Positions 44,743-52,232 of a stretch of 64,000 nt of DNA are shown here, one piece after another. The translations under genes were made by a program, and so were the position numbers. Below the pieces are notes generated by a model. The model saw nothing but the letters and a program-made list of their open reading frames with translations. It searched no databases and was not told the origin of the DNA. Position 1 is the first letter of the stretch, and every line of letters starts with the position of its first letter. Source of the stretch: Thermocatellispora tengchongensis (GTDB lineage Bacteria > Actinomycetota > Actinomycetes > Streptosporangiales > Streptosporangiaceae); NCBI RefSeq assembly GCF_014202315.1, contig NZ_JACHGN010000009.1, positions 279,602 through 343,601 on the forward strand, given 5' to 3'.

Positions 44743-45462
44743 ATGGCGATCCCGCAGATCCCCCCGGCCGCCCCGCTGCCGCAGCAGCGCAGCGTCCTGG
44801 TGGTGGAGGACGACGAGACGATCGCGCACGCCGTACGCGACAGGCTGATCGCGGAGGGGTTCGCGGTGCGGGTCGAGGCCGACGGCGAGCGCGCGCTCGC
44901 GGCGTACGGGCGGATGGAGCCGGACGTGGTCGTGCTCGACCGGCTGCTCCCCAGGCTGGACGGGCTGGAGGTGTGCCGCAGGATGCAGGCGGCGCGCCCG
45001 GTGCCGGTGCTCATGCTGACCGCGCTCAGCGAGGAGACCGACCTGCTCGTGGGCCTCGGCGTCGGCGCCGACGACTACGTGACCAAGCCGTTCAGCATGC
45101 GCGAACTGGTCGCGCGGCTGCACGCCCTGCTGCGCCGGGTCGAACGGGCCGCGCAGCTCGCCGTCGAGGAGACCATGATCAAGGTCGGCGAGGTGCACAT
45201 CGACACCGCCGAGCGCCGCGTCTACGTCGGCGGCGAGGAGGTGCGGCTCACCCGAACCGAGTTCGACCTGCTGCGCCGCCTGGCCGAGCGGCCCGGCCAG
45301 GTGTTCGAGCGGGAGCGCCTGCTCGGCGACCTGTGGGGCTTCTCCGAGGCCGCCGCCACGCGCACCGTGGACAGCCACGTCCGCGCCCTGCGCAAGAAGC
45401 TCGGCCCCGACGTGGTCCGGACCGTCCACGGCGTCGGTTACGCCCTCGCCAAACCGGTCTGA
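44743..45462 (+). CDS. OmpR/PhoB-type response regulator
   Basis: A 239-residue regulator. The receiver domain has LVVEDDETIAHAV, phospho-acceptor Asp66 (VVVLDRLLPRLDG) and the KPF switch Lys. The C-terminal winged helix is intact (VRLTRTEFDLLRRLAERPGQ, then TRTVDSHVRALRKKLG). A 16-residue Pro/Gln-rich N-terminal extension precedes the receiver. The kinase-DUF4173 fusion gene follows on the same strand and must be its partner. Confidence 0.93.
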   Translation: MAIPQIPPAAPLPQQRSVLVVEDDETIAHAVRDRLIAEGFAVRVEADGERALAAYGRMEPDVVVLDRLLPRLDGLEVCRRMQAARPVPVLMLTALSEETDLLVGLGVGADDYVTKPFSMRELVARLHALLRRVERAAQLAVEETMIKVGEVHIDTAERRVYVGGEEVRLTRTEFDLLRRLAERPGQVFERERLLGDLWGFSEAAATRTVDSHVRALRKKLGPDVVRTVHGVGYALAKPV

Positions 45463-45488: not shown

Positions 45489-45524
45489 ATGAGTCTCACC
45501 AAGATGCGATGCGTGATGCGATGA
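45489..45524 (+). CDS. Possible 11-codon leader ORF coupled to the kinase fusion gene
   Basis: Reading MSLTKMRCVMR, it starts at an ATG seven bases after GGAGG (45477-45481), the only good ribosome site in the interval. It ends in an ATGA overlap with the kinase ATG at 45521. The kinase starts themselves (45509, 45521) have no site of their own, so the kinase may be translated by coupling. The local sequence also contains a GATGCGATG direct repeat, so a small duplication that displaced the original start is the alternative explanation. Confidence 0.35.
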   Translation: MSLTKMRCVMR

Positions 45525-48500
45525 GGCCGCTCGACTTCCTCGGCCGGATCAAGATCAAACTCGGCCTGGCCGTGTGCCTCGCGGTCGTGGTGGCCTTCGT
45601 GGTCAACGAGGTCGGCATCAACGCCGGCCTCGGCCGGGAGCTGCGGATAGCGGTCGCGGTCGCACTCGCGCTGCTCATGGTGCAGCTCCTCGGCCGCGGC
45701 ATGATCAGGCCGCTGCGCGAGATGGCCGCCGCCGCGCAGACCATCGCCAAGGGCCGGTACGGCCAGCGCGTACGCGCCACCTCCCGCGACGAGGTCGGCG
45801 AACTGGCCCGCGCGTTCAACGCGATGGCCGCCGACCTGGGCGAGGTGGACCGCCAGCGCAGGGAGCTGGTGGCCAACGTCAGCCACGAGCTGCGCACCCC
45901 CATCACCGCCCTGCGCGCCGTGCTGGAGAACGTCGTGGACGGGGTGTCCGAGCCCGACGTGCACACCCTCGGCATCGCCCTCGCCCAGACCGAACGGCTC
46001 GGCCGGCTCGTCGCGCAACTGCTCGACCTGTCGCGGCTCGACTCCGGCGCCATGCACATCGACCCCGAGACCGTGGGCCTGGAGCCCCTGCTCGACCAGG
46101 CGGCCCGCGAGGCGGCCCTGACCCGCGACGACGTGACCGTGCGCGTCGCGGTACGGCCCGCCGGCCTGTCCGTACACGCCGACCCGGGCCTCCTCGCCCA
46201 GGTCCTGGCCAACCTGCTCGACAACGCCGTACGCCACAGCCCGCCCGGCGGCACCGTCACCCTGTCGGCCGTCCCCGCCCCGCCCTCCCCGGCGAGCCCC
46301 GGCGTCCAGATCGCGGTCGCCGACCAGGGCCCCGGCATCCCCCAGGCCGAGCGCACCCGCGTCTTCGAGCGCTTCTCCCGCCTGGACGCCGCCCGCGCCG
46401 CCGACGCCGGCGGCACCGGCCTCGGCCTGGCCATCGTGAAGGAGATCGTGGAACTTCACGGCGGCTCCATCCACATCGACGACTCTCCCGGCTGCCGCAT
46501 GGTGGTCGGGCTCCCCGGAAGGATCACCATGGGCGACTCACCCACCCCCGAACCCCCGCCCAGCCCCACCGCCCGCCCCCTGGCCGCCCCGGTCCCGAGG
46601 AAGACCACCGCCACCACCGAGAACGCAGCCGGAACCGAGGGCGCGGCACGGGAGCCCGCGCCCACGGAGCCCGTCCCCGCCACCACGGCCCCGCCGTCCC
46701 CGGCCATCGCGATGGCCGAGGCCGCCCTGCCCCCGGCCCCGGATGCGGACGCGACCGCACCGGAGATGCCGGCGACGCCCGCGGTGGCCCAGGGAGTCGC
46801 CGGTTCGGGTGTGACTGAGATCGTCGTGGCGCACGGAGCCCCCGGCTCCGGTGTGCCGGAGGCCGTGGGTTCCGGTGTGACGCAGGCCCCGGGACCGATG
46901 ACACCGGTGCCCGGCGCGGGCACTGAGGTGCAGGAGCCCGCCGTGGTCCCGGCCACGGGGTCCGGGGCGAAGGAGGTCGTGGTCGCGCGCCTGGGTTCGA
47001 ATGTGCCGGAGGCCACGGCGCCGCCGGTCGGCGTCACGGAGGCGGTCGGGGGTTTGGCCGTGCCGGAGGGCGCGGGTGTGCCGGTCGCCGCCATGGGGGC
47101 CGTGGGCTCGGGCGTGTCGGAGGCCGTGGCGCCGCCGACCGGCGCCACGAGGGCGCAAGAGGGCGCGGGTATCGCCGCGGCGGAGGCCGGGGTGCCGGTG
47201 ACGGCCGCCGTGGCCGAGGGAGCGGCCGGTTCGGGTGTGACTGAGGTCGTCACGGCGCCCGGAGCCTCCGGCTCTGGTGTGACGGAGGCCGTGGTGCCGC
47301 CGGTTGGCGTCGCCGGGGCGAGGGGGGCCACGGGCTTGGGCGCGGCGGAGACGGCCGGTGTGCCGCTCGCCGCGACAGGGGCAGAAGAGGGCACCGGCGT
47401 GGCCGTGCCGGAGGCGGCCGGTGTGCCGGGCAATGTCGGCGTGGGCCATGAGGCCGTGCCGGCGGTGCTGGCTTCCGGTGAGTCGGGAGCCGCTGTGCCA
47501 CCGGTCGGCGTCACGGGGGCGCAAGGGGCCGCGGGCGTCGCGGCGGCGGAGCCCGCCGGGGGGCCGGTCACTGCCGCAGCGCAGGCCGCCGTGGGTTCCG
47601 GTGCTCCTGGGGCCGCGGCATCGACGACCAGCGCGGCCGAGACGAAGGGTGCCGCGGACCCGGCCGCGTCGAGGGCCGTTGGGGCGCCGGTCGCCGCCGC
47701 CGGAGCGCCGGGTGCGGGCGCTGCCGTGTCGGGGGCCGTGGGGGTGCCGGGCACGGGCGCTGCCGCGTCAGGGGCCGTGGGGGTGCCGGGTGCGGGCGCC
47801 GCTGTGTCGGGGGTCGTGGGGGCTCCGGGGGCGGGCTCTGCGGTGAAGGTGGGGGTGCCGGGTGCGGGTGGCGATGTCAAGGAGCGGGCGGGCGGGGTGC
47901 GGCCGGGGGGTGCGGGCATGCCCGCGGATGTCGGGCGGGGGCGGGTGGGGCCGCCTCCGCCGCCGCCTGGGCAGTGGGCGCCGGGAGGGCCGGGAGGGCC
48001 GGGTGGAGCCGGGGGGGAGTCCTATCCGGCCAACTGGTGGGCGGCGATCGGGTTCGCGGTCGTGGGGGCCTGTTGCGGGCTGATCGCGGCGGTCGTCGTG
48101 GGTGCGGTGCTCAGTGTGGTGGGCTTCGCGCTGGCGATGCTGGCCGCGTTCGGGTGTGTGCTGGCCGGGGCGTTCATCGGCACTGTGCTCGGGGCGACGC
48201 GCAAGGCGCCGGCTCCCGTGCGTCCGGCCAATGCTCCGGAGAAGGCGCCGGGCGGGCCGTCGTACGTGCCGCCCTCGGTGTTGCCGCGGCCGGAGGTGCC
48301 GGCGATGCCGTCGTGGGTGCTGCCGGCGATGGCGGGGGCGGGGCTGGTGGCGGCGGTGACGCTGCCGTACGCGGCGCCGGGGCTGGGGCTGGTGCTGACC
48401 GCCGTCGCGCTGGGGGTGGTCGGGCTGCCTGCGCTGTGGCGCAGGATCACGCCCTGGTCCCTGGGGCTGGGCCTGCTGGGGTACGCCCTGGTCGGCGTGG

Positions 48501-49777
48501 CGCTGGTGCGGGACGCCGACTGGCTGGTCACCCCGCTCGCCCTGGCCGGGTTCTGCATCGCGGCCCTCGCGCTGTCGGGGCTGGGGGCGAGCTGGCTGGG
48601 CACGCTCAAGGGCGGCGCGTCCGTCCTGCTGGCGCTGATCCCGTTGCCCTGGTTCGTCGGCGGGCCGCTGAAGGCGGCGGCGCGGCGGCGGCCGCGGAAG
48701 ATGGCGCCGATCGCCGTCGGCGTGGGGCTGACCGCGGCGCTGCTGCTGGTGTTCGGCGCGCTGTTCGCCTCCGCCGACCCGGTGTTCTCCGCGTTCCTCA
48801 CCGACGCGTTCACCGCCGCCGACTGGGCCGAGACGCTGCCGTTGCGGATCGTCGCGTTCATCGGCATCGCGATCCTGGCCGGGGCGGTCGCGCTCGCCGG
48901 GCTGCGGCCGGGCCCCGAGCCCGAGCGGCGCGACTTCGGCCTCAACGTGGGCCGGGCGGGGTGGCTGATCCCGCTGACCGCGCTGAACCTGCTGTTCGCC
49001 GCGTTCGTCGCGGTGCAGATCACGGTGCTGTTCGGCGGCAACGAGCGGGTGCTGACCACTGCCGGGCTGACCTACGCCGAGTACGCCAGGCAGGGCTTCT
49101 TCCAGCTCGTCGTCGTCAGCGTGTTCGTGCTCGCCGTCGTCGCGGTCGCCGCGGTGGCGGTGGCGGTGGACGGCCGGGACCGGTGGACGATGGCCGGGCT
49201 GCTCGGCCTGCTGTGCGCGCTGACCATGGTGATCATGTGGTCGGCGATCCAGCGGCTGCACCTGTACGTGGACATGTACGGCTACTCCCGGCTGCGCGCC
49301 GTCGTCGAGGTGACGCTGTGGTGGCTGGGCGCGGTGTTCGTGCTGGTCCTGATCGCGGGCGCGATGCGCCTGATGCTGCGCCGCGGCGGCTGGCTGCCGC
49401 GCGCCCTGGTGGCGGTGACCGGCGTCGCCATGCTCGCCTTCGCCGTGTGGAACCCCGACCTGCGCATCGCCGAGACGCAGATCAAGGAGCGTGGGCTGAA
49501 GTTTCTGGACGCGGCGTACCTGAGCGACCTCGGGGCCGATGCGGTGCCCGCGATCAGCAGGCTGCCGGAGCCGCTGCGAAGCTGCGTGCTCGCCGACGTC
49601 GTGGTCGCCAACGACCTGAACCTGCCCGACCCGTGGAACGGCTGGAACCTGGCCCGGCAGCAGGCGCACGAGCTGCTGGCCGAGCGTCCGGTGACGTCCT
49701 CCCTGGACTGCAGGATCGGGAGCGTCACGACCACCGGCTCCGTCGAGGACGACCGGACGATCCCCGACCAGGACTGA
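45521..49777 (+). CDS. Histidine kinase - Gly/Ala/Val-rich linker - DUF4173 fusion protein
   Basis: One uninterrupted frame of 1418 residues. Residues 1-60 hold two TM helices, followed by HAMP (to ~110), HisKA with phospho-acceptor His122 (VANVSHELRTP) and HATPase (ANLLDNAVRHS, then GTGLGLAIVKEIVELHGG) ending near residue 330. About 490 residues of Gly/Ala/Val/Pro/Thr-rich repeats follow (GSGVTEVV, VPEAAGVP, TGAQGAAG types). From ~835 to the end there is a DUF4173-like domain with about 12 TM helices and a C-terminal extracellular part (YLSDLGADAVPAI). An internal ATG at 46529 (residue 337) has GGAAGG six bases upstream, so the membrane half may also be made separately. OmpR partner upstream; alternative start at 45509. 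Confidence 0.85.
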   Translation: MRPLDFLGRIKIKLGLAVCLAVVVAFVVNEVGINAGLGRELRIAVAVALALLMVQLLGRGMIRPLREMAAAAQTIAKGRYGQRVRATSRDEVGELARAFNAMAADLGEVDRQRRELVANVSHELRTPITALRAVLENVVDGVSEPDVHTLGIALAQTERLGRLVAQLLDLSRLDSGAMHIDPETVGLEPLLDQAAREAALTRDDVTVRVAVRPAGLSVHADPGLLAQVLANLLDNAVRHSPPGGTVTLSAVPAPPSPASPGVQIAVADQGPGIPQAERTRVFERFSRLDAARAADAGGTGLGLAIVKEIVELHGGSIHIDDSPGCRMVVGLPGRITMGDSPTPEPPPSPTARPLAAPVPRKTTATTENAAGTEGAAREPAPTEPVPATTAPPSPAIAMAEAALPPAPDADATAPEMPATPAVAQGVAGSGVTEIVVAHGAPGSGVPEAVGSGVTQAPGPMTPVPGAGTEVQEPAVVPATGSGAKEVVVARLGSNVPEATAPPVGVTEAVGGLAVPEGAGVPVAAMGAVGSGVSEAVAPPTGATRAQEGAGIAAAEAGVPVTAAVAEGAAGSGVTEVVTAPGASGSGVTEAVVPPVGVAGARGATGLGAAETAGVPLAATGAEEGTGVAVPEAAGVPGNVGVGHEAVPAVLASGESGAAVPPVGVTGAQGAAGVAAAEPAGGPVTAAAQAAVGSGAPGAAASTTSAAETKGAADPAASRAVGAPVAAAGAPGAGAAVSGAVGVPGTGAAASGAVGVPGAGAAVSGVVGAPGAGSAVKVGVPGAGGDVKERAGGVRPGGAGMPADVGRGRVGPPPPPPGQWAPGGPGGPGGAGGESYPANWWAAIGFAVVGACCGLIAAVVVGAVLSVVGFALAMLAAFGCVLAGAFIGTVLGATRKAPAPVRPANAPEKAPGGPSYVPPSVLPRPEVPAMPSWVLPAMAGAGLVAAVTLPYAAPGLGLVLTAVALGVVGLPALWRRITPWSLGLGLLGYALVGVALVRDADWLVTPLALAGFCIAALALSGLGASWLGTLKGGASVLLALIPLPWFVGGPLKAAARRRPRKMAPIAVGVGLTAALLLVFGALFASADPVFSAFLTDAFTAADWAETLPLRIVAFIGIAILAGAVALAGLRPGPEPERRDFGLNVGRAGWLIPLTALNLLFAAFVAVQITVLFGGNERVLTTAGLTYAEYARQGFFQLVVVSVFVLAVVAVAAVAVAVDGRDRWTMAGLLGLLCALTMVIMWSAIQRLHLYVDMYGYSRLRAVVEVTLWWLGAVFVLVLIAGAMRLMLRRGGWLPRALVAVTGVAMLAFAVWNPDLRIAETQIKERGLKFLDAAYLSDLGADAVPAISRLPEPLRSCVLADVVVANDLNLPDPWNGWNLARQQAHELLAERPVTSSLDCRIGSVTTTGSVEDDRTIPDQD

Positions 49778-49852: not shown

Positions 49853-51013
49853 GTGCGGGTTCCGGAGTGGCGGGACGGCGAGCCTGCCAAGGGGCTGCTC
49901 GCCCCGCCCGTAGGAAAGTCGATCTTCGACGGCGCCGTCTCCTTCCCGATCATGGTGCTCGACGGCGCCGCCGTGCGGCACAACGTCGCCACCATGGCGG
50001 CGTTCGCCCGTGACCACGGCCTCCTCCTCGCGCCGCACGCCAAGACGACCATGGCGCCCGCGCTGCTGGCCGCGCAGCTCGACGCGGGCGCCTGGGGGTT
50101 CACCGTGGCCACCCCCACCCAGGCGCTCACGCTGCGCGGCTTCGGCGTGCGGCGGATCGTGCTGGCCAACCAGTTCGTCGACCCGGCCGGGCTGCGCGCG
50201 GTCGCGGCCGAGCTGGAGCGCGACCCGGCCTTCGAGTTCCTGTGCTTCGCCGACTCCGTCGCCGGGATCGAGATCCTGTCCGCCGCGGCCGGCCCCCGGC
50301 CGTTCCGGGTGCTGGCCGAGCTGGGGCACGAGGGCGGCCGGGCCGGCTGCCGTACGCTCGGCGGCCTGCTCGACGTCGCCACGGCCGCGCAGAACGCGCC
50401 CGGTGTGGAACTCGCCGGAGTGGCGGGGTACGAAGGGGCGCTCCGCACCGCCGCCGAGGTGCGCGCCTACCTCGGGCGGCTGCAGGAGGCGCTGGAGCAC
50501 CTGCGGGTGCGCGAGCCGATCCTGTCGGCCGGCGGCAGCCAGTGGTTCGACGTGATCGGCCGCGAGCTGGCCGGCTGCCGGGCCCGGGTCGTGCTGCGCA
50601 GCGGCGCGTACGTCACGCACGACGACGGCTACTACCGCGAGCGCACCCCGTTCACCCGCGTCCCCGGGGAGCTGCGGCCCGCGCTCGAACTGTGGGCCCA
50701 CGTGCTGTCGGCGCCCGAGCCGGGCATGGCGGTGCTCGGCTTCGGCAAGCGCGACGCCCCGTACGACGAGGGCCTGCCGGTGGTGCGGGCGCTGCGCCGG
50801 CACGGGCGTACGGTCGCGCTCGGCGAGGGCGAGGTGACCGTCACCAAGATGCAGGACCAGCACGCCATCGTGCGCACCGCCGCCGAGCTGCGGCCCGGCG
50901 ACCTGCTGTCGTTCGGGATCTCCCACCCGTGCACGGCCTTCGACAAATGGCGGGTGCTCCCGGTGGTGGACGATCGCCATGTCGTGATTGATTTGATCAG
51001 CACGTACCTTTGA
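49853..51013 (+). CDS. D-threonine aldolase / D-serine dehydratase-like PLP enzyme
   Basis: A 386-residue fold-type III PLP enzyme with an alanine-racemase-like N-terminal barrel. The PLP lysine is Lys64 (APHAKTTMAPAL). The metal site expected of the DSD1 family is His358 and Cys360 (SFGISHPCTAFDKW). It would cleave or dehydrate a beta-hydroxy-D-amino acid. The GTG start follows GAGGGGGG. Only 1 bp separates its stop from the next gene's ATG, so the two form an operon. Confidence 0.86.
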   Translation: MRVPEWRDGEPAKGLLAPPVGKSIFDGAVSFPIMVLDGAAVRHNVATMAAFARDHGLLLAPHAKTTMAPALLAAQLDAGAWGFTVATPTQALTLRGFGVRRIVLANQFVDPAGLRAVAAELERDPAFEFLCFADSVAGIEILSAAAGPRPFRVLAELGHEGGRAGCRTLGGLLDVATAAQNAPGVELAGVAGYEGALRTAAEVRAYLGRLQEALEHLRVREPILSAGGSQWFDVIGRELAGCRARVVLRSGAYVTHDDGYYRERTPFTRVPGELRPALELWAHVLSAPEPGMAVLGFGKRDAPYDEGLPVVRALRRHGRTVALGEGEVTVTKMQDQHAIVRTAAELRPGDLLSFGISHPCTAFDKWRVLPVVDDRHVVIDLISTYL

Positions 51014-51014
51014 G

Positions 51015-52232
51015 ATGGAGACCGGGGTGGACAGTTCGGTATACGTCTTCGCCGAGGACATCCGCGGCGAGGGCCTGGACAACGTGCTCGACCGGGTGGC
51101 CGGGCACGGCGCGGCCGGGGTCACCGTCGGGGCCGTCCACCACGCCGCCCGCGACATCACCCCGCACGGCGTGACCAGGCTGACCGTGCGCCACGACGGC
51201 GCCCACTTCGTCCCGCCCGCCGACCTGTTCGACGGGCTGCGCCTGTCGCCGCCGGTCCAGGAGTACGCGGCGGAGGAGCCCATCGCCGCGCTGCGCAAGG
51301 CGACGGCCGCGCGCGGGCTCCACCTGCACGGCTGGGCCGTGTTCCTGCGCTGCGCCACGCTCGGCCGCGAGCACCCCGACATCACGGTGCGCGACTGCTT
51401 CGGCGACCGCGGCTCGCCCGAGGACCTGTGCCCGGCCCACCCCGACGTGCGCCAGTACGCCGAGGCGCTGGCCCGCGCCGTGGCCCGGCAGGGGGTTGAC
51501 AGCGTGGTCGCCGAGGCGCTGCACTTCCGCCGCCTCACCTACGAGCGCTCCTCGGTCGCGCTCGGGCCGATGGACGCCTTCCTGTTCGGGTTGTGCTTCT
51601 GCGACTTCTGCATGCGCCGGGCCGCCGACCTGGGCGTCAACGCCGAGGCGGCGCGCGAGGAGTGCGCCCGGATCGTGGGCGGGGTGCTCGACGGCGACCC
51701 GCCGGCGCAGGGCGAGGTCACCCGCGCGGCGCTCACGGCGTACGCGGGGCCGGAGGTCGTCGCCTACGCCCGCGCCCGCTCCGAGACCGTGACCTCGCTG
51801 GTCTCCATGGTGTCCGACGCCGTGACGCAGGAGGGGTCCAAGCTGGTGTTCCTCGATGCCACCGGCGCGGTCAAGGGCTACGCCGACGGCCTGCCCTCGC
51901 CCGGCCTGGCCGCGCACGACGCCTGGCAGCTCGGCATCGACCTGCTCGCGCTCGGCGATCTCGTGCCGTCGTTCGGCGTGCTCGCCTACGCCCGCGACGC
52001 CGCCCGGGTGGCCGACGACGTGGGCGCCTACCGCCGCTCGGTGGGTAAGGACCGCGAGGTCAGGGTGGTGCTGCGGCCGGGCCTGCCCGACACCGACTCC
52101 GCCGACCGGCTCACCGCCAAGGTACGCGCGGTGCGCGCGGCCGGCGGCCACGCCGTCGACTTCTACGCCTACGGCCTGGTGCCCTACCCGGTGCTCGACC
52201 GGATCCCCGAGGCGCTGAGCCAGACCCCGTGA
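51015..52232 (+). CDS. Uncharacterised TIM-barrel-like protein
   Basis: A 405-residue soluble protein with no recognised Pfam-type name. Strand/helix alternation and the strings GLHLHGWAVFLR, VVAEALHFRRLTY and VLDGDPPAQGEV suggest a TIM barrel. The motif LCFCDFCMRRA (around residue 195) resembles the Cys-rich CxCxxC loop found in several glycoside-hydrolase-like barrels of unknown activity. There is no signal peptide. Its start lies right after the D-amino-acid enzyme stop; GTG at 51027 behind GGAG is an alternative start. It is probably functionally tied to the upstream enzyme. It converges on the LacI gene (4 bp gap). Confidence 0.6.
   Translation: METGVDSSVYVFAEDIRGEGLDNVLDRVAGHGAAGVTVGAVHHAARDITPHGVTRLTVRHDGAHFVPPADLFDGLRLSPPVQEYAAEEPIAALRKATAARGLHLHGWAVFLRCATLGREHPDITVRDCFGDRGSPEDLCPAHPDVRQYAEALARAVARQGVDSVVAEALHFRRLTYERSSVALGPMDAFLFGLCFCDFCMRRAADLGVNAEAAREECARIVGGVLDGDPPAQGEVTRAALTAYAGPEVVAYARARSETVTSLVSMVSDAVTQEGSKLVFLDATGAVKGYADGLPSPGLAAHDAWQLGIDLLALGDLVPSFGVLAYARDAARVADDVGAYRRSVGKDREVRVVLRPGLPDTDSADRLTAKVRAVRAAGGHAVDFYAYGLVPYPVLDRIPEALSQTP

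Follow-up and report, generated by a model that had tools for sequence, protein, structure and literature searches.

In the window, by which we mean the whole 64,000-nucleotide stretch of Thermocatellispora tengchongensis DNA analysed here, a single forward-strand gene (45521..49777) joins a histidine kinase through a long low-complexity tether to a polytopic DUF4153 membrane domain, and comparison with relatives confirms that this fusion is a real, one-piece gene rather than an artefact. The frame is open from an ATG at 45509 (1422 aa) to the stop codon at 49775-49777, with a better conserved start at 45521 (1418 aa) in a context, RPLDFLGRIK, that is common to the orthologues. Pfam finds only HAMP, HisKA, HATPase_c and DUF4153 in the whole chain. 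The first-pass annotation had correctly described a single gene with the kinase first, a low-complexity linker and a C-terminal domain of about 12 transmembrane helices, for which we count about 12 hydrophobic segments, but its assignment of that domain to DUF4173 has to be replaced: the match is to DUF4153 (PF13687; residues 992-1352, positions 48482-49564, forward strand; E 5e-78), with 263.3 bits against a curated cut-off of 27 bits and coverage of profile positions 4-373 of 373, and DUF4173 is absent from the window protein at E ≤ 0.01 and from all eight fused relatives scanned at E 0.001.

An OmpR-type response regulator of 239 aa, with Response_reg and Trans_reg_C domains (Pfam E 6.4e-26 and 2.5e-23), is encoded directly upstream on the same strand (44743..45462). 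A small forward-strand ORF of 11 codons (45489-45524), preceded by a GGAGG motif, overlaps the conserved kinase start at 45521 in an ATGA arrangement and is a possible leader or coupling ORF.

Conservation of the fused frame

The main comparison set comprised the best 80 of 307 confirmed DUF4153-related candidates, all of them from Streptosporangiaceae. One open frame runs through the kinase and DUF4153 in 67 of the 80 loci and in the window, giving 68 fused genes. Contig ends truncate twelve loci, although the kinase tail can still be seen in frame in two of them (L046 and L059); in the remaining locus, L039, the two parts are out of frame. Openness of the frame was itself the criterion by which the 68 were picked, and a fair tally sets them against the single unfused gene among the 69 that can be judged, window included. 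In none of these 69 are there two independent genes parted by a stop near 46530. First-order Markov versions of the 645-codon stretch between the domains of the window protein remained open in 0.2% of 500 trials, and the corresponding expectation over the 68 fused genes is 4.72 open frames. The fused architecture was also recovered by Pfam in all eight proteins scanned, four of which lie outside the main clade.

These observations bear on the reading that a chance open frame, a frameshift or an assembly error has joined two genes at GC-rich repeats. The tether is indeed about 79% GC and repetitive, the 12 contig ends fall in or near the tether stretch, and in L039 (4136-7455) the kinase and DUF4153 parts lie in different frames, the shift falling within the GC-rich tether; sequencing error and inactivation cannot be told apart as its cause. 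Against this, the 67 in-frame loci come from separate genomes and are joined by the window, and other fused groups exist separately with short tethers. The artefact reading is already refuted at the level of the family, and we regard it as exceedingly improbable overall.

Phyletic distribution and history of the pair

The wider distribution was surveyed in a class-wide sample of 296 genomes, with a kinase threshold of E ≤ 1e-70; as 7 kinase candidates were scored per genome, the kinase counts are lower bounds. DUF4153 exceeded its cut-off in 57 genomes and the kinase matched in at least 64, and similarly scoring kinases are also found in genomes lacking a DUF4153 match (e.g. G082, G180 and G366). 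When the tables were compared by position, at least 31 of the 57 genomes, spanning 9 families, proved to carry a same-strand kinase immediately upstream of DUF4153; in 21 of these 31 both parts share one open frame and in 10 they do not. In the remaining 26 DUF4153 genomes none of the candidates scored was a linked kinase at this threshold, a contig break accounting for one of these genomes (G003).

Among 36 further loci examined beyond the main set, 12 are fused, 11 encode the two proteins as separate neighboring genes and 13 have no kinase upstream. Two of the 12 fused loci belong to the main clade (L111, which duplicates L051, and L113), and 6 of the 11 two-gene loci are from the same family as the main clade but more distant. 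One locus counted among the 13 (L099) lies on a contig that starts in the tether, and its genome has a kinase match on another contig, which makes its label in the tree, DUF4153 alone, uncertain. Seven of the 11 two-gene junctions are ATGA overlaps between the stop codon of the kinase and an in-frame start codon for DUF4153; L101 also has the ATGA, but its DUF4153 frame contains a later stop and it was excluded from the seven. Such overlaps imply that a small indel could fuse the two genes. In L112 (G012), which is a close relative by its DUF4153 sequence (61%), a two-contig genome shows no kinase match at E ≤ 1e-60 genome-wide, and the kinase half has apparently been lost.

In a DUF4153 tree of 57 rows (the window, 20 of the 67 fused loci and the 36 further loci) the label "fused" has to change four times, and well-supported branches force all four changes, of which L112 is one. 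Three fused groups can be recognized, namely the main Streptosporangiaceae clade, L103 and L104 among two-gene relatives, and a set of eight rows from three other families. On the simplest reading of the tree the fusion might have been gained three times, with gains followed by fissions as the alternative. The first-pass annotation had regarded the DUF4153-type region as an unusual kinase extension; the extension is real, but it is no one-off, being the usual state in its clade and present in the other fused groups. Kinase and DUF4153 distances correlate across 21 outgroup pairs (r 0.91), as is expected for any co-inherited genes. The recurrence of the pair as neighbors or as one gene in several actinobacterial families suggests that the DUF4153 protein is the kinase's partner, and most likely its sensor, while its occurrence without a linked kinase indicates that it also has some role of its own.

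The connection between kinase and membrane domain

The tether proper (46517..48037, forward strand) comprises about 507 residues (about 337-843), is rich in Ala, Gly, Val and Pro, and has no Pfam match at E ≤ 0.1. It includes an in-frame tandem repeat with a 39-bp (13-residue) unit, in 3.6 copies with 83% matches (47707..47845, forward strand). For comparison across genes we used the stretch between the BLAST-aligned domains, the two opening helices of the DUF4153 part being counted in it. For the window protein this stretch consists of 645 residues (24% A, 18% G, 14% V, 13% P) and is the longest of the 68 fused genes, in which it ranges from 156 to 645 residues with a median of 371; the other fused groups have 98-124 residues. 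An AlphaFold2 model of the kinase-DUF4153 protein of L051 (912 aa, 68 rows; pTM 0.57) gives block pLDDT values of 32-49 in the tether-equivalent region.

At its end the tether passes into a Gly-rich hydrophobic hairpin (48035..48199, forward strand) recognized by hydropathy, with segments at residues 858-876 and 879-897, which is itself poorly predicted (block pLDDT 41-54). The between-domain stretch contains four or more hydrophobic segments in 52 of the 68 proteins, three in 7 and two in 9, which implies that most fused proteins carry an extra pair. The order after the kinase in the window protein is thus a floppy stretch, a membrane hairpin, a short spacer and the polytopic domain. The first-pass annotation had envisaged a very long flexible tether with both ends on the cytosolic side; that placement of the ends is consistent with the charge distribution, but since the hairpin at 858-897 interrupts the chain before DUF4153 the two domains are not connected through the cytosol alone.

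Because the tether varies fourfold in length, is unconserved in sequence and is cut in the two-gene relatives, the chain itself is unlikely to transmit a signal. The same lack of conservation in sequence and length, together with the ATGA coupling in 7 of the 11 two-gene forms, might be read to mean that the fusion only secures co-translation and a 1:1 stoichiometry, and that the chain may be cut within the tether after synthesis. However, an open tether of 156-645 variable residues maintained in 68 genes exceeds what coupling needs, and nothing points to a conserved internal start. Within the 65 codons that precede DUF4153, 7 of 68 genes have an in-frame ATG or GTG with a five-base Shine-Dalgarno-like motif, which is no enrichment over the control regions (8.3% of 408). 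We judge this co-translational explanation to be improbable.

The kinase and its response regulator

The N-terminal part of the protein begins with a pair of transmembrane helices (residues 14-32 and 47-65; 45548..45703, forward strand) separated by an outside loop of about 14 residues, as judged by hydropathy and Pfam, followed by the HAMP (60-110), HisKA (116-180) and HATPase_c (225-336) domains (Pfam; 45686..46516, forward strand). A phospho-acceptor histidine and the N, D and G boxes are the hallmarks of HisKA-type kinases, and the window protein combines HisKA and HATPase_c with all of these intact, the phospho-acceptor being encoded at 45884-45886. The conserved catalytic residues of the SHELRTP, DNAVRHSP, DxGxG and GLGL motifs are invariant in the 68 sequences, and hence the kinase is not decaying. 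All 68 fused genes have a response-regulator match no more than 400 bases upstream of the kinase.

Neither hydropathy nor Pfam revealed an extracytoplasmic sensor domain in the N-terminal part of the kinase. Its outside loop is longer than the "often <10" residues given for intramembrane-sensing kinases, which PMC7951975 defines by two helices around a very short outside loop and the lack of any other sensor domain; this difference counts against the accessory-sensor reading. With two helices and almost nothing outside, the kinase plausibly needs an external sensor. There are precedents for such an arrangement: short-loop kinases are known that draw their sensing from a linked membrane protein or are held back by one, namely BceS with BceB and GraS with VraG (PMC7951975) and LiaS with LiaF (PMC7191749).

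Topology and conservation of the DUF4153 domain

The DUF4153 membrane core (48317..49447, forward strand; delimited by Pfam, AlphaFold2 and a positive-inside count) is predicted to contain 11 crossings and one re-entrant pair, and is followed by a conserved C-terminal tail (49448..49774, forward strand), probably extracytoplasmic, that bears a pair of cysteines (codons 49583-49585 and 49709-49711). The charges favor an arrangement with the N-terminus inside and the C-terminus outside, linked by eleven crossings and one re-entrant pair: with the tails excluded, this topology places 16.1 K/R per protein in inside loops against 7.6 in outside loops, whereas treating the re-entrant pair as one full crossing gives 9.1 inside against 14.6 outside. 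In an alignment of 79 of 81 possible rows (L076 and L078 left out) the two tail cysteines are present in 79/79 and 75/79 rows, and in a second set, made up of the window with 36 mainly outgroup loci, in 33/37 and 34/37 rows; a third cysteine (DUF4153 construct residue 397) occurs in 78/79 rows of the first alignment. The loops assigned to the outside are also better conserved than those inside (mean top-residue frequency 0.80 against 0.67; one-sided permutation p 0.0008). The charge distribution and the cysteine pair, whose members would be bonded to each other, thus suggest that the tail and the best conserved loops of DUF4153 lie outside the cell.

An AlphaFold2 model of the DUF4153 part, built from the 79-row alignment, has a mean pLDDT of 80.6 over 583 residues. 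A Foldseek search against the PDB retrieved nothing at E ≤ 0.001, and a profile search for a relative of solved structure nothing at E ≤ 1. VIA-align returned helix-bundle chains, the best with a Z of 9.1 over 110 of 583 residues, helical bundles requiring a Z of about 13. The structure and profile searches thus amount to an absence of a recognized match for DUF4153 and not to proof of a new fold. A Cache-type sensor was rejected, PMC4822843 describing DUF4153 and DUF4173 both as unrelated to Cache.

The better conservation of the outside-assigned loops would also fit a binding or catalytic site, and hence a different reading in which DUF4153 is the output or client of the system: a transporter or enzyme regulated through the conformation or phosphorylation of the kinase, or a transceptor reporting flux as in CbrA, where transporter and kinase share one chain (PMC13022988, PMC7096432, each as far as accessible). 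That many genomes have DUF4153 but no kinase linked to it, and that G012 has no strong kinase match at all, points the same way, as the domain may then have a transport or enzymatic role of its own and information may flow in the reverse direction. On the other side, no transporter or enzyme match for DUF4153 was recognized at the thresholds used, and since every one of the 68 fused genes has a response regulator close upstream, a transcriptional output already exists. Taken together, we consider a role as output or client rather unlikely, though clearly less so than the co-translational one.

Gene neighborhood

Among the flanking genes scanned with Pfam, matches were obtained to glycogen-debranching and D-Ser dehydratase/alanine-racemase models, while the next gene gave no match. 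The D-Ser dehydratase/alanine-racemase-like gene (49853-51010, forward strand) is found downstream in 69 of the 80 loci as well as in the window. An Amidohydro_3 gene is downstream in 65 of the 80 loci, 60 of which have both; it is absent from the window locus, and matches elsewhere in the window genome are weak (best E 1.7e-14). The gene that follows at 51015-52229 (forward strand) encodes a protein of 405 aa that matches neither Pfam (E ≤ 0.1) nor NCBIfam (E ≤ 0.001). With 66-83% identity this protein recurs downstream in 67 of the 80 loci, as in the window; it is better conserved than DUF4153, and in L112 it directly follows DUF4153 (82%).

Among the 36 further loci, matches to these neighbors at E ≤ 1e-15 are confined to L111 and L113 of the main clade, with the third gene also in L112. 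The conserved neighbors of the main clade are therefore not common to other lineages, and the genes possibly form a D-amino-acid cluster of that clade. A D-amino-acid signal was considered on the basis of these genes and set aside as weak, the neighbors being clade-specific synteny.

A proposed mode of action

We propose, with about even confidence, that the protein is the core of a three-component system in which kinase and membrane partner form one polypeptide, DUF4153 acting as an outside sensor that controls the kinase by lateral contact within the membrane. The components would be the OmpR-type response regulator, the short-loop histidine kinase and the DUF4153 membrane protein. DUF4153 might sense the outside through its conserved loops and cysteine-paired tail, and would then alter the packing of the kinase helices and HAMP domain by side-to-side contact in the membrane, upon which the kinase would set the phosphorylation of the adjacent regulator. 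Lateral contact is favored here because the tether appears too variable to carry a signal. The fusion would fix a 1:1 ratio and keep both parts together, with the tether as a passive spacer. The direction of signaling from DUF4153 to kinase is likewise a prediction of this model, and the ligand might at best be related to the envelope or to D-amino acids.

A more elaborate version of this proposal, which we advance only tentatively and consider somewhat less probable than not, sees the family as a recurrent "reversed transceptor". Here a short-loop kinase would carry a C-terminal polytopic receptor, from a family without a recognized solved relative, on an entropic tether of freely drifting length, to which most proteins of one clade add the Gly-rich membrane hairpin. 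Signaling would be purely lateral and independent of chain connectivity, and overlapping gene pairs would have been joined covalently on about three occasions.

Relationship to known systems and functional significance

The fusion is conserved and recurrent; with its DUF4153 partner it would be a variation on accessory-protein sensing and not something categorically new. LiaR is a NarL-type regulator, whereas the regulator here is OmpR-type, and the third component matches only DUF4153 and not LiaF. The place of the BceAB partner of BceRS is likewise taken by DUF4153, with no ABC permease or ATPase among the neighbors scanned. In the SLC5-STAC kinases the transporter is N-terminal and SLC5 is joined via STAC, in contrast to the C-terminal DUF4153 and variable low-complexity tether found here, where there is no SLC5 or STAC match. 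What is shared with BceS-BceAB, GraS-VraFG and LiaS-LiaF, as far as their accessible descriptions go, is a two-helix short-loop kinase with a linked membrane partner and an adjacent regulator gene; the differences are that the partner is DUF4153 rather than an ABC permease or LiaF, and that it is fused C-terminally in three groups. The SLC5-STAC kinases CbrA and CrbS (PMC13022988) are the nearest fused kinase-membrane proteins and resemble the present family in having a polytopic domain and a kinase in one chain and in two-component signaling. Stand-alone DUF4153 proteins (PF13687) have the same domain and mostly the same cysteine pair and motifs, with no kinase attached. Searches of the literature, which covered titles and the openings of abstracts and few subscription papers, retrieved no report of a kinase-DUF4153 pair, although database annotations of it may exist.

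The interest of the fusion lies in making the function of DUF4153 testable, its repeated fusion and its linkage to a short-loop kinase and a regulator providing a handle on that function. The family further constitutes a natural experiment, with fused and split forms and with short and long tethers, on whether an accessory sensor must be connected to its kinase.
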